Assembly: GCF_011064595.1 (NCBI RefSeq)
Contig: NZ_JAALJI010000019.1
Coordinates: forward strand, 1 to 64,000
Direction of reading: 5' to 3'
DNA: 64,000 bases
Source of the DNA: Paludisphaera soli
Lineage (GTDB): Bacteria > Planctomycetota > Planctomycetia > Isosphaerales > Isosphaeraceae
Shown: piece after piece, positions 6,192 through 48,923 of the stretch
Layout: the number at the start of each line of letters is the position of its first letter
Numbering within the stretch: position 1 is the first letter of the stretch
Translations under genes and position numbers: made by a program
The notes under the pieces: generated by a model
The model's input: the letters and a program-made list of their open reading frames with translations, nothing else
Database searches by the model: none
Told to the model about the DNA's origin: nothing

Positions 6192-6304
6192 GGACGCAGG
6201 CTCTCCCGAATCGCCCAGGGCGTCGGCCCCGTCGCGGCCGTCGGTAGGATGGGCGTGCGTCCTCTTGGATGTGGTTCGCGACGATCGGGGACGAGGAGGG
6301 GACG

Positions 6305-7576
6305 ATGGCGACCATCGAGAGACTGGGACTCGAAGAGATCGAACGCCGCGTCTGCGACGTGGCCTCGGAGCAGCTCAGCATCCCGCGCGCGAAGCTCGCG
6401 CCGGGGCTGCGGATCGTGCAGGACCTCCACGTCGACAGCCTGGACCTGGTCGAGCTGTTCATGGAGGTGGAGGAGGCGTTCGACGTGACCCTGCCGGATC
6501 GATCGGCGGACCCAGTGTTCAAGGCCGTGTTCACCCGCCCGGACTTCCGGCTCGCCGACCTGGCCGAGCTGGTCTACCTCGTGCAGGGGTCCGGGGCCCC
6601 CAGGAGCGATCGGGGCCGGGACGGCGAGGGTGATGCGCACACGACGATCGCGGGCTTCACGCAGCTCGGTGGCCGCTGGGAGGGCCGGTCGCCCGTGTGG
6701 GAGGTCCCGATCGCCGACGGGGCCGTGATGAGTTACCGCCGTCGGACCGATGGCATGCGATGCCTGCCGATCCCGTCGGCCGTCGCGGAACTTGGCGATG
6801 AGAACCCGGACGCCCCTCGCGACGAGCGGCCCGTGCGGCGGGTGGAGATCGACGCCTTCGTGATCGACGCCGAGCCGGTCTCGACGACCGCCTACTGCCG
6901 GTTCCTGAACTCGATCGGCGAGGTCGGGCCCGACGTGCTCGCGGACTGGTTCGTCCTGCACCCGGACGACGACCGCGACGAGCACCATCTCGTCCGGCGC
7001 GAGGGGTCGACCTGGCGTCCCCTGCCGGGCGTCGACCGCAAGCCGATGATCCTGGTCTCGTGGTTCGGCGCGAACGCGTATTCGCTATGGGCCCTGGGCT
7101 GCGACTGGCGACGCTACGGCGGCGGGGCGGGAGACCCCGAGGGCTTCCTGCCGACGGAGGCCCAGTGGGAGTACGCCTCGCGGGGCGCCTCGCGGCGAAC
7201 CTTTCCCTGGGGCGAGGCGTCTCCCTCGCCGGAGCTGTTGCAGTTCGGCCGGCACCGCAGGGGGGCGTCGTACGTCCCCGCGACCCTGCCGATGGCCGAC
7301 GTGAACGTCGACCTGGGCGTCTCGCCGTTCGGGGCCCGGCACATGGCGGGGAACGTCTGGCATTGGTGCCGCGACTGGTACGCGGCCGATTTCCCCGGCC
7401 GCCCCGAAGCCTCCGCGCCGAACCCCGCGAACCGGACGCCGACCGGCGTCCGCGCCGAGCGCGGGGGGAGCTGGGTCGGCCCCGCCTCCCTCTGCCGAAG
7501 CTCCGCCCGCCGCGGCCGCCCCCCCTCGGCTCGGGGCCGCTGCCTGGGCTTCCGCTGCGTCGCCCCCCTGCCCTGA
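6305..7576 (+). CDS. Acyl carrier-like domain fused to formylglycine-generating-enzyme (SUMF1/FGE-sulfatase) domain
   Basis: 423 residues. The ATG at 6305 is preferred over one 36 bp upstream because gaggagggg lies just before it. Residues 1-90 form an acyl/peptidyl carrier domain with the phosphopantetheine site VDSLDLVEL (Ser45). After a short Asp/Gly linker comes an FGE-sulfatase domain (about 150-423) with the family hallmarks PTEAQWEYASRG, FPWGE, MAGNVWHWCRDWY, RGGSW and a GFRC end. The FGE fold includes sulfatase-activating oxidases and many proteins of other function. The paired active-site cysteines of true FGE are not clearly present; the only Cys near that place is in LCRSSARR. A carrier domain fused to this fold, inside an RNA-repair locus, is unusual. 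A TAGGAT box at 6245-6250 could be its own promoter. Confidence 0.85.
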   Translation: MATIERLGLEEIERRVCDVASEQLSIPRAKLAPGLRIVQDLHVDSLDLVELFMEVEEAFDVTLPDRSADPVFKAVFTRPDFRLADLAELVYLVQGSGAPRSDRGRDGEGDAHTTIAGFTQLGGRWEGRSPVWEVPIADGAVMSYRRRTDGMRCLPIPSAVAELGDENPDAPRDERPVRRVEIDAFVIDAEPVSTTAYCRFLNSIGEVGPDVLADWFVLHPDDDRDEHHLVRREGSTWRPLPGVDRKPMILVSWFGANAYSLWALGCDWRRYGGGAGDPEGFLPTEAQWEYASRGASRRTFPWGEASPSPELLQFGRHRRGASYVPATLPMADVNVDLGVSPFGARHMAGNVWHWCRDWYAADFPGRPEASAPNPANRTPTGVRAERGGSWVGPASLCRSSARRGRPPSARGRCLGFRCVAPLP

Positions 7577-7595: not shown

Positions 7596-8909
7596 ATGCG
7601 GATCGTCGACTTCTCGCCTCCGGCCTCCCCCACCCTCGACCAGCAGCGCGACGCCCTGCGCAAGGGCTTCGGCCGCGCGCGGATGTGGGCCGAGGTCGGG
7701 AAGCTGGAGGACGGGCCTTTGCTGGAGGCCTGCCTGACCGACTTTCGGTTCGACCGGCAGCTCGAAGGGACGCGCGGACGATGGCTCGCGGAGATCGTCC
7801 GCGCCGCCGACGCGATGGGCCGCTTCCGCGTGCCGATCCTGCGAGCCCTGGATGAGCGCGATGACGCGAACGCCGGGCAACTCTGCGAGCTGGCCTTCGC
7901 CTACGCGAAAGCGGGCGACGACGCGTTCCGCTCATCGCTCTACCGGATCGTGGAGGCCGGCCCCGATGACGAGGGCTGGCTCCTGGTCGAGGACGAGGTC
8001 CTCGATCTTGACGGGGAGCCGGCGTTCCTGCTTTTGGCGCGGCTCCGGGGGGAGTCGCTGCGGCATCGTGGCTGGCAATGGAGCGACGACTCGTTCATCC
8101 GCCATTCTGGCGAGATCCTCGGCGAGGAACGACGGGATCGCCTTCTGCGCGAGTCGGGCGATGCGTTGGTTGCTGCGTTCGAGGAGCGACGGCGTCGCCA
8201 CGAGGAGGCCGAAGCGGCGGAACATGCGGCCGAGCCACCCTATCGGGAGCGGATGCGGTCGATCGCGGTGGAGGCCGTCCTGGAGGCGGCCGAGTCGACG
8301 GAGAGCCGCCTTTACTTCTAGTTCCAGGGTTGGGGGAGCTTCGCCGACTCGGATGGAAGGGAAGCGGTCTTCACCCGGCTCCTGGAATCCACCGACCGGA
8401 GGTTCCAGGCGCGTCTGGCGAGGGTTTTCTACCGGCCCGGCTTTCCGCGGTTCGACCCTCGGCTGCTGCCGCTCTGCCTGGATGCGGACCCGGCCATCAG
8501 GAACCCCACGATCCAGGCGCTGGCGAAGGTCGACGACCCGGCCGTGCGGGAATTCGCCCTGGCGGAGATCGCGGGCGGGCCCGGAGGCGCGGCCGTCGTG
8601 GAGCTGCTGATCCATCATTTTCGCCCCGGCGACGAACGGTTGATCCTCGAATCCATCGATCCGCCCGAGGACGAGGCCGAGCGTCACTGGCTGTTCCAGG
8701 ACGTGCGTCGAATCCTGGAGGCCAACCCAGAAGCCGATGCGCTCCCTTTGGCCCTCGTCGGCTACGCCTCGACGCCGTGCAGTTTCTGCCGCGAGGGGTT
8801 CGTCGCCCTTCTCCACGAACGCGGCCTGATGCCGGCCTGGATGGTCGAGGAGGCCCGGTTCGACGCCGACGGGCGGACCCGAAGATTCGACGAGAATGCC
8901 GACGGCTGA
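7596..8909 (+). pseudogene. Hypothetical protein gene interrupted by one in-frame amber codon
   Basis: One reading frame runs from the ATG at 7596 to the stop at 8907-8909, broken only by TAG at 8319-8321. The upstream part is 241 residues ending RLYF. The frame resumes immediately with FQGWGSFADSDG and continues for 195 residues without another stop, in matching high-GC codon use. Together they would make about 437 residues. The downstream part contains a HEAT-like stretch (DDPAVREFALAEIAGG) and a Cys pair, CSFC. I do not recognise the family. The gene is placed 19 bp after the carrier/FGE gene and just before Pnkp, co-directional. The amber may be a recent nonsense mutation, a sequencing error or a readthrough site; a one-base change from a Tyr, Trp or Gln codon would restore the frame. 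Confidence 0.7.
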
Positions 8910-47420: not shown

Positions 47421-48923
47421 TCAGCCGCGGCGGGCGACGTCGCGGATGGGTGGGAGTTCGTCGAGCCCTTCGCGCGGGACGGCCTCGACGAACCGTCGGA
47501 GGGCGAGTTCCAGGTGCTCGGCGGCCTCGCCGTGCTGCTCGATGACGTTGTTCTGGTCCCAGCGGTCCTCGGGCTTGCGGTACAGTTCGGGGCGTCGCGG
47601 CTCCTCGGGGTCGTCGACCAGGGGGAGAATCATGTGCCAGACGTGGGTGCGGATGGCGTACTCCTCCACGTCCATGCCCATCACGGCGTAGTCGCGGATC
47701 TTGGTCTGCTCGCCCCGGATGAGCGGCAGGAGGTCGCGGCCGTGGATCGGCGGCGCGTCGTCGGGGGGCTGGACGCCGAAGAAGCCCAGGAGCGTCGGCA
47801 GCAGGTCGACGGTCTGGACGATCGCCTGGTGGCGCATGCCGCCGTGCTTCGCCCCGGGCATCCTCACGATCAGCGGGGTGTGGACCAGCTCCTCATAGAG
47901 CCAGGGGCGGAACCGGCGGACGTAGCCGTGCTCGCCCAGGGGCTCCCCCTGGTCGCTCGTGAAGATCAGGAGCGTGTCCTCGTCGCGGCCCAGGCGTTCG
48001 AGCGCGTCGAACAGCTCGCCGAGCCAGCGGTCGACCAGGGTGACGGCCCCGGCGTAGGTGCGGCGGAGGCGGTACAGCTCGGCCTCGCCGATCACGTCGC
48101 CCACGGCGCCGGCGGGGACGTCGATCAGCACGGGGACGTCCTCGACGTCGATCTCGGGCTCGTCCTCGTCGGAGTCGTCCACGAGGTCCCCCTCGTCGTC
48201 GGACTCGAACTCGTCGGGCTCGATGGTGGCGTACTGGTCGCGATACGGGTCGGGGAGGTCCCAGGGCCCGTGGGGGCTGAACAAGTCGAGCCAGAGCAGG
48301 AACGGCTCGGGGTCGTCCTTCCGGCGGTCGAGCCAGTCGATCGCCGCCTTGACGGTGCGGGCCGCGCCGGTGTTCTCCTCCCGGTCGGTCCGCAGGGCCT
48401 TGCGGTTGCGGAGGAACTGCTCCCAGCGGGTCCGCCAGCGCTCGGCCGATTCGGGGTCGTCCTCGTCCTCGGGCGGCAGGCGCAGGCCGGGCTCGTCCTC
48501 CAGGCGGACGCCCCGGGCGCGGGGGTCGTCGGCGGGGATGTAGGGGTCGTAGCCCTGGCCCCGGATCCAGATCACGTCGTCGAACCCGCGGCCGTAGCCC
48601 ATGCCGGTCTCGCGCAGGAACGGCACGTCGGAGATCAGGGCCGTCCGCACGCCTTGAGGGCTGAGGAGGTCGGGGAGGATCCGCTCGTCCGGGCGTAGGG
48701 GGGTCCAGCCGAGGTCGGGGTCGGTCAGGCCGTATCGGCCCGTCCACCAGCTCCTCCGGGTGGGGAGCGTGGTCAGGTTCTCCGGGAAGTGGTGGTCGAA
48801 GACGACCCCCTGCGCGGCCAGGCGGTCGAGGTTGGGCGTCTCGATCCACGCGTTCCCGTAGGCCCCGAGGAATCCAAGATGCACGCTGTTGCAGGCGACG
48901 ACGATGGCGTTCATGGGGCCCAT
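47421..48923 (-). CDS. Sulfatase/alkaline-phosphatase-superfamily protein with degenerate active site
   Basis: 500 residues from the ATG at 48923; the ATG at 48914 (MNAIVVACNS) is equally possible and fits the family start better. The fold is clear: LGFLGAYGNAWIETPNLDRL, FHFPEN-like region, TSDQGEPLGEHGYVRR, HTPLIVRMPG and the C-terminal YRKPEDRWDQNNV. Counting from 48914, key residues are changed: Asn9 replaces a metal-binding Asp, TLPTR (49-53) replaces CxPSR so no formylglycine precursor Cys or Ser exists, and SDQGE replaces SDHGE. It is therefore unlikely to be a standard sulfatase. An acidic insert (DEFESDDEGDLVDDSDEDE, about 235-255) is also unusual. DUF2079 gene upstream, 24-bp gap. 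Confidence 0.85.
   Translation of the reverse strand: MGPMNAIVVACNSVHLGFLGAYGNAWIETPNLDRLAAQGVVFDHHFPENLTTLPTRRSWWTGRYGLTDPDLGWTPLRPDERILPDLLSPQGVRTALISDVPFLRETGMGYGRGFDDVIWIRGQGYDPYIPADDPRARGVRLEDEPGLRLPPEDEDDPESAERWRTRWEQFLRNRKALRTDREENTGAARTVKAAIDWLDRRKDDPEPFLLWLDLFSPHGPWDLPDPYRDQYATIEPDEFESDDEGDLVDDSDEDEPEIDVEDVPVLIDVPAGAVGDVIGEAELYRLRRTYAGAVTLVDRWLGELFDALERLGRDEDTLLIFTSDQGEPLGEHGYVRRFRPWLYEELVHTPLIVRMPGAKHGGMRHQAIVQTVDLLPTLLGFFGVQPPDDAPPIHGRDLLPLIRGEQTKIRDYAVMGMDVEEYAIRTHVWHMILPLVDDPEEPRRPELYRKPEDRWDQNNVIEQHGEAAEHLELALRRFVEAVPREGLDELPPIRDVARRG

Follow-up and report, generated by a model that had tools for sequence, protein, structure and literature searches.

Sulfatases are the classical client class of FGE (SUMF1). 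In known bacterial RNA-repair complexes kinase, phosphatase, ligase and methyltransferase activities seal and methylate RNA, and the Hen1-Pnkp system repairs RNA cut by ribotoxins and methylates the junction (PMC4411300, in the part of its text covered here). FGE-fold domains have been described as effectors in conflict systems, including the GAP1-N2 systems of planctomycetes (PMC7159879, likewise covered in part), and the terms "acyl carrier" and "phosphopantetheine" are absent from the text of that paper. Among the titles and beginnings of abstracts that our literature search spanned, there was neither a fusion of an acyl carrier domain to an FGE-fold domain nor a carrier protein in RNA repair; the RNA-repair review of Burroughs and Aravind (2016), the likeliest place for such a mention, lay outside this scope.

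The DNA analyzed here (the window) is a stretch of 64,000 nucleotides from Paludisphaera soli (contig NZ_JAALJI010000019.1, positions 1 to 64,000), in which a genuine open reading frame encodes precisely such a fusion, ACP-FGE (Table 1). An ATG at 6269, upstream of the one that follows the Shine-Dalgarno-like sequence, is probably not the start of this gene, and a scan for promoters and terminators, which says little, found neither. In all 10 close pairs of family members that were compared, six of them drawn from four near relatives, dN was lower than dS in the carrier domain, the FGE domain and the linker, the last of which is far more variable (mean pairwise identity 0.31 among family members) than the carrier (0.52) and the FGE domain (0.61).

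Table 1. Features of the ACP-FGE locus (positions in the window, read 5' to 3')
Feature	Start	End	Strand	Basis or remark
Hen1, RNA 3'-terminal ribose 2'-O-methyltransferase	3992	5392	+	TIGR04074, 690.8 bits (cut-off 340); PF12623, E = 5e-109
HEAT-repeat protein, overlaps end of hen1	5382	6191	+	PF13646, E = 1.5e-22
Shine-Dalgarno-like GAGGAGG	6293	6299	+	Precedes ATG 6305; read directly
ACP-FGE fusion gene	6305	7576	+	423 aa; Pfam, NCBIfam
Carrier domain, residues 8-96	6326	6592	+	PF00550, TIGR00517; limits set from alignments
Ser45 codon, expected phosphopantetheine site	6437	6439	+	Same in 29/29 members
Variable linker, residues 97-143	6593	6733	+	Mean pairwise identity 0.31
FGE-sulfatase domain, residues 150-419	6752	7561	+	PF03781; AF2 model vs FGE structures, Z 26.5
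Gly392 codon, position of human FGE Cys336	7478	7480	+	Alignment; Gly in 29/29
Cys397 codon, position of human FGE Cys341	7493	7495	+	Alignment; Cys in 29/29
Cys413 codon in RCLGFRC; asparagine in human FGE	7541	7543	+	Cys in 29/29 members
Reading frame with one in-frame stop (8319-8321)	7596	8909	+	Between ACP-FGE and Pnkp
Pnkp, polynucleotide kinase-phosphatase-ligase	8971	11613	+	TIGR04075, 1408.6 bits (cut-off 750); PF16542

The fusion recurs in related bacteria. With the best four candidates per genome scored, ACP-FGE was recovered from at least 30 of 397 sampled genomes of the class, in four taxonomic families, and from at least 10 of 392 sampled genomes of the phylum, all of them within the same class; in the window's own taxonomic family it is present in 5 of 45 genomes, and the search of the order covered the same 45. 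One member (G689), a fragment that spans residues 297-427 close to the end of a contig, was excluded from the alignment and the linkage analysis, leaving 29 holders. All 29 full-length members, that of the window included, match both Pfam families (E ≤ 0.001 for PF00550), and hence the fusion is not due to chance; on the same count a chance ORF or a false carrier match was rejected. The assignment of an N-terminal carrier domain joined to a SUMF1/FGE-sulfatase domain, made in an initial annotation of the window, stands in both Pfam and NCBIfam, and the profile search that the annotation had named as a possible refutation of the carrier domain found one, with PF00550 above its cut-off. In a scan of genome contigs only relatives of the FGE domain were present among the matches listed (80 loci). 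Among 188 matching ORFs, taken from these 80 loci and from 78 loci on viral contigs, none matched at Ser45 and one began before residue 90 (L033, at residue 89); the ACP query found no relative in the viral contigs, and among 217 matching plasmid records a single one reaches 80% coverage of the query or more, its match starting at residue 72. ACP-FGE was found in none of the genomes that carry 50 of those 80 contig loci, in a search run without a positive control. A known anti-phage system was rejected, in that PADLOC, run on nine proteins, gave no match for the fusion and only partial matches for Hen1, the HEAT protein and Pnkp.

The carrier domain is matched by the PP-binding family PF00550 over residues 15-66 (score 24.5 bits, cut-off 20.8) and by the acyl_carrier model TIGR00517 (E = 4e-14); as the score of the latter, 52.3 bits, lies below the equivalog cut-off of 70.45, the domain is carrier-like and not AcpP itself. 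The sequence matches of the whole protein in the PDB are to FGE (E = 1e-20) and to ACPs (E = 3e-10). Ser45, which the initial annotation had numbered correctly in the motif VDSLDLVEL, is kept in all 29 members, and Asp44 in 28 of them. The confidence of the AF2 model is low over the carrier half (block means of about 32-71 for residues 1-100, and a mean of 53.8 for a model of the ACP part only); in this low-confidence model the helices follow one another in the expected order, with Ser45 just ahead of one of them. Two PPTase-family genes are encoded in the window's own genome, which makes formation of the holo form possible, and an ordinary AcpP is additionally present in each of the 29 genomes with ACP-FGE, so the carrier of the fusion is an extra one. 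A third carrier protein, common to most of these genomes, was considered as the ancestor of the carrier domain and rejected, as in the six genomes read it has an AESID motif and the carrier domain of the fusion gave no match to it. An AESID-motif carrier protein with a long C-terminal extension was seen in all six genomes read (L257-L262).

The C-terminal domain matches PF03781 over residues 156-419 with 124.3 bits against a cut-off of 23.3 (E = 9e-36), and the NCBIfam FGE-fold models SenA, EgtB, GldK and PvdO all match far below their cut-offs. An AF2 model for which 50 FGE relatives were used has a mean pLDDT of 73 overall; many FGE blocks exceed 90, and confidence is good over most of this domain. 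The top matches of the model in Foldseek were FGE structures (E = 1e-16), and in VIA-align it superposed on 2q17 with a Z-score of 26.5 (243 residues, rmsd 3.3) and on human FGE (2aft) with one of 26.1. PorK (Z 25.2), a Treponema variable protein (Z 25.1) and PvdO likewise lie within 1.5 Z of FGE, and hence the fold alone does not give the function. Comparison with human FGE showed that: 1) the GGS motif is kept; 2) the position of Cys336 is occupied by Gly392, and that of Cys341 by Cys397, in every one of the 29 members; 3) Cys413 aligns with the asparagine directly preceding LGFRC, a residue which we take to be near the active site. The earlier statement that the FGE cysteine pair is not evident therefore holds for the first cysteine but not for the second. 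With one of the two active-site cysteines absent throughout the family, a true FGE by the cysteine criterion was rejected, as was a variable protein of a diversity-generating (DGR) system, since the C-terminal 40 residues are highly conserved in the 29 members.

Besides Ser45, the residues invariant in all 29 members are Cys198, Cys355, Cys397, Cys413, Cys418, His317, His346 and Gly392, and Cys153 is present in 28. In a comparison set of 50 other FGE-fold relatives aligned to ACP-FGE, the same residues occur at these positions in none (His317, His346), one (Cys198, Cys413), two (Gly392), 16 (Cys397) and 41 (Cys355) of the proteins. From these counts, His317, His346, Cys198, Cys413 and Gly392 are the family's own marks, and Cys397 is not special to it. 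It could be argued that the FGE fold serves here as a non-catalytic binding platform and that the carrier, a docking tag or sensor, couples repair to the status of lipids or of coenzyme A: none of the 29 members has the complete canonical copper pair, and the structural or ligand-binding PorK and Treponema variable protein score close to FGE itself. We regard this as quite unlikely, however, given that His317, His346, Cys198 and Cys413, invariant in the family and found in at most one of 50 relatives elsewhere, look like a family-specific functional site.

A different role suggested by the fold is in the maturation of sulfatases or of some other protein; ACP-FGE would then be a diverged maturation factor, the carrier arm would be a thiol donor and the repair neighborhood would be secondary. 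Sulfatase genes were detected in 4 of 28 fetched stretches (mostly of 20 kb) from three genera (g23, g28 and g352), with PF00884 confirmed in two, and one sulfatase-like gene (L147, 10964-12409, + strand) is divergent from ACP-FGE at a distance of 277 bp; none of the four stretches is linked to repair genes at 25 kb. Yet 24 of the 28 stretches are without a sulfatase match, and the bacteria to which the holders belong are presumably sulfatase-rich, so that a few sulfatases near ACP-FGE are expected. As one of the two FGE active-site cysteines is moreover missing in all 29 members, we give this role hardly any credence. In the window a sulfatase-like gene (47472-48914, - strand; tblastn only) lies 40 kb from ACP-FGE.

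The Hen1-Pnkp gene run around ACP-FGE is the best clue to its function. Hen1 and Pnkp, the core of a bacterial RNA-repair system, flank the fusion gene on the same strand, and both had been missed in the initial view of its surroundings. They score far above the cut-offs of TIGR04074 and TIGR04075. A relative of the HEAT protein is also found at the hen1 loci of G001, G002 and G029 (tblastn). The interrupted frame between ACP-FGE and Pnkp comprises 438 codons, both stops counted, for which Pfam recognized no family in 7596-8321 and gave only a sub-threshold match (E = 0.047) in 8544-8909; it represents a broken gene, a pair of short genes or an error in the sequence. The remark that no synthase or ligase for loading is nearby agrees, for loading enzymes, with the scanned genes of the window; in relatives from two genera, however, the gene run that holds ACP-FGE also includes an R2K ATP-grasp gene. 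These surroundings bear on a reading in line with the initial annotation, in which an acyl or peptidyl group on the carrier is modified by the FGE-fold domain as part of a small metabolite-like pathway unrelated to RNA. The carrier motif is indeed intact, and PvdO, CalU17 and ToxD, named for natural-product pathways, are among the structural matches; but no ketosynthase, adenylation or condensation domain was found among the neighbor genes scanned, which are a subset of the neighbors, and the recurrent neighbors are RNA-repair genes, making a pathway of this kind very unlikely.

In relatives, classed as planctomycetes on the basis of gene content (DUF1559 genes), ACP-FGE is found with repair genes in several arrangements. 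In G001 the order is Hen1, HEAT, ACP-FGE, RNA ligase (PF09414), HD/AAA33 protein and Pnkp, and in G643, which belongs to another taxonomic family, the genes for Thg1, RNA ligase, HD/AAA33, Hen1, RlaP, R2K, RlaP, ACP-FGE and Pnkp follow one another on one strand, with spacings around ACP-FGE of about -8, +23 and -13 bp, depending on the start codons; in both genomes ACP-FGE lies inside the repair cassette, where adjacent genes either overlap or are up to about 80 bp apart. The order in G646 is RlaP, EF-Tu-family gene, R2K, Macro and ACP-FGE, and G452 has two RlaP genes, the nearer of which is 1.7 kb from ACP-FGE. In eight of the nine holders of genus g23 ACP-FGE is upstream of, and on the same strand as, RNA ligase, HD/AAA33, Hen1 and Pnkp, with the RNA ligase at about 2-17 kb, Pnkp at 6-21 kb, other genes between ACP-FGE and Pnkp, and RlaP after Pnkp; the ninth (G113) is without Pnkp and RlaP. 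Several further features were observed at these loci. At L177 (6769-9412) an EF-Tu-family gene, an R2K ATP-grasp gene and a Macro-domain gene stand in a row between RlaP and ACP-FGE. PcfJ-like genes lie on the opposite strand between ACP-FGE and the repair cassette at L142, L143, L144, L169, L170 and L172 (one identified by Pfam, the rest by tblastn). An extended RNA-repair set, consisting of RNA ligase (PF09414), an HD-AAA33 kinase fusion, Hen1, Pnkp, RlaP nucleotidyltransferases and Thg1, occurs in varying order at L141, L143, L144, L169, L176 and others. In taxonomic family f101 (e.g. G440, G446 and G455) the Pnkp match is split into two halves that share a frame and are separated by a gap, as if there were an insertion between the phosphatase and ligase parts.

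Linkage was assessed in the 29 genomes, with Pnkp accepted at E ≤ 1e-100 and RlaP at E ≤ 1e-20. One or the other is present in 24 of the 29 holders, and both are absent from five. In 14 of these 24 genomes Pnkp or RlaP is found no more than 25 kb from ACP-FGE (within 5 kb in 5 and within 50 kb in 15), and Pnkp itself is within 25 kb in 11 of the 20 linkage-tested genomes that have it. Linkage at 25 kb spans 7 of 14 genera and 3 of 4 taxonomic families, genus g23 accounting for eight of the 14 linked genomes. As a control we took the other ACP genes of the same genomes (64 loci, 55 of them in genomes with Pnkp or RlaP): none of the 55 is within 25 kb of Pnkp or RlaP, and the only one within 100 kb belongs to the genome of the window. 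When only the first-listed genome per genus is counted, five of the 14 show linkage, for which P = 1.7e-7 if placement is random and genera are treated as independent. Co-occurrence points the same way: Pnkp is present in 20 of 30 holders versus 97 of 367 non-holders (p = 1.3e-5) and RlaP in 24 of 30 versus 135 of 367 (p = 4e-6), absence in draft genomes being uncertain, and hand tallies by genus give 11 of 17 versus 51 of 168 for Pnkp (p = 0.006) and 15 of 17 versus 68 of 168 for RlaP (p = 1.5e-4). Recurrent physical linkage and co-occurrence of ACP-FGE with Pnkp and RlaP, which Hen1 and RNA ligase often join, are well supported. Mapping the linked/unlinked label onto the gene tree takes 7 changes, a value reached or undercut by 28 and 22 of 500 shuffles (mild clustering), and hence linkage has been gained or lost several times.

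The ten genomes unlinked at 25 kb comprise five in which the genes lie on different contigs of draft assemblies and five in which they are on one contig, 44 kb to 2.97 Mb apart. The 15 unlinked loci have neighbors in common only within a genus, except for a DUF1559 cluster and one unnamed cluster. These loci, the 10 of 24 unlinked genomes and the five of 29 holders without Pnkp and RlaP would agree with ACP-FGE being a neighbor by habitat, i.e. a separate metabolic or stress enzyme that shares islands prone to gain and loss with RNA-repair genes and does not work with them, as would the g23 cassettes, whose starts lie about 2-17 kb from ACP-FGE and several of which are separated from it by PcfJ-like and other genes. 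Against such mere cohabitation stand the cassettes of G643 and G001, with ACP-FGE inside them at spacings from overlap to about 80 bp, and the spread of linkage over 7 of 14 genera in 3 families, and we consider it an unlikely, if serious, explanation. Together with the fact that most Pnkp genomes (97 of 117) are without ACP-FGE, the unlinked genomes and the holders without Pnkp and RlaP indicate that ACP-FGE is an optional repair partner at most. In G029, of the window's own genus, Hen1, HEAT and Pnkp stand together without ACP-FGE, and this gene run and the same 97 genomes imply that repair does not need it.

We therefore propose, with a probability of roughly 0.48, that ACP-FGE, a conserved protein of two domains, functions as an optional accessory in a planctomycete-type variety of the Hen1-Pnkp RNA-repair cassette; that its link to RNA repair is a functional one appears rather likely. 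The protein probably works as a thiol or acyl enzyme on a group bound to the carrier, a chemistry that we infer from its domains and conserved residues. In the mechanism envisaged for this accessory, Ser45 would be phosphopantetheinylated by a genome-encoded PPTase, and the variable linker would let the arm enter the cleft of the FGE fold, where Cys397, perhaps with Cys413, would work on the arm thiol or on an arm-bound group by oxidation or by thiol or acyl transfer rather than by formylglycine making. The target of the product might then be the damaged RNA end or a repair protein. The R2K enzymes, found in the same gene run in two genera and predicted to be peptide ligases (PMC4431377, in the part of its text covered), would be candidates for supplying the group. 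Catalysis in cis by the FGE fold on the carrier arm we hold to be doubtful. Studies of FGE are pertinent here, as far as the covered portions of the respective papers go: the C336S mutant of human FGE traps the substrate thiol on Cys341 (PMC4505483), and hence the keeping of the Cys341 position only fits a thiol-anchoring site, and in the copper site of FGE, a bis-thiolate, the cysteine of the substrate binds as the third thiolate (PMC12123546). More speculatively, and as something of a long shot, the thiol of the Ser45 phosphopantetheine could enter the cleft, replace the lost Cys336 ligand and form with Cys397 and Cys413, directly or through a group on the arm, a new copper or thiol center for redox or acyl-transfer chemistry, which would install or remove a group in RNA-end repair; if such a center exists, carrier-protein chemistry would be a step of RNA repair. 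There are hints, then, of a carrier-bound chemical step as part of the repair of broken RNA. A carrier and an FGE-fold domain inside a repair cassette would add to it a thioester- or thiol-borne chemistry, which in the titles and abstract beginnings spanned by the literature search was not found tied to RNA repair, and ACP-FGE is a clean case in which to study the role of an FGE fold that lacks the canonical cysteine pair.

ACP-FGE can be set against several known systems. It shares with AcpP the carrier profile (TIGR00517, E = 4e-14) and the DSL serine motif, but it scores below the equivalog cut-off, has 43% identity over 61 aa to the AcpP of its own genome, and is fused. With FGE (SUMF1) it has in common the fold (Z 26.5 to 2q17 and 26.1 to human 2aft), the GGS motif and the Cys341 position, and differs from it in the glycine at Cys336, the added Cys413, the N-terminal carrier and the presence of a nearby sulfatase in 4 of 28 stretches only. 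The sulfoxide and selenoxide synthases EgtB, SenA and OvsA have the same C-terminal FGE-like fold (SenA matches with E = 2.8e-17, far below its cut-off); enzymes of the EgtB/SenA type carry an N-terminal DinB-type iron-binding domain with histidine ligands, whereas the N-terminal part of ACP-FGE matches carrier families only and the protein gave no match to a DinB domain in Pfam at E ≤ 1. PvdO, ToxD and CalU17 likewise have the FGE fold but belong to other pathways, and we know of no carrier domain fused to them. In genomic terms the system to compare is the bacterial Hen1-Pnkp system, together with Pnkp1-Rnl-Hen1. Unlike those complexes, in which Pnkp, Rnl and Hen1 act without a carrier or FGE-fold subunit in the description given by the covered part of PMC4411300, the cassette in the window has ACP-FGE flanked by Hen1 and Pnkp, and its relatives add to these RNA ligase, RlaP, Thg1 and R2K.
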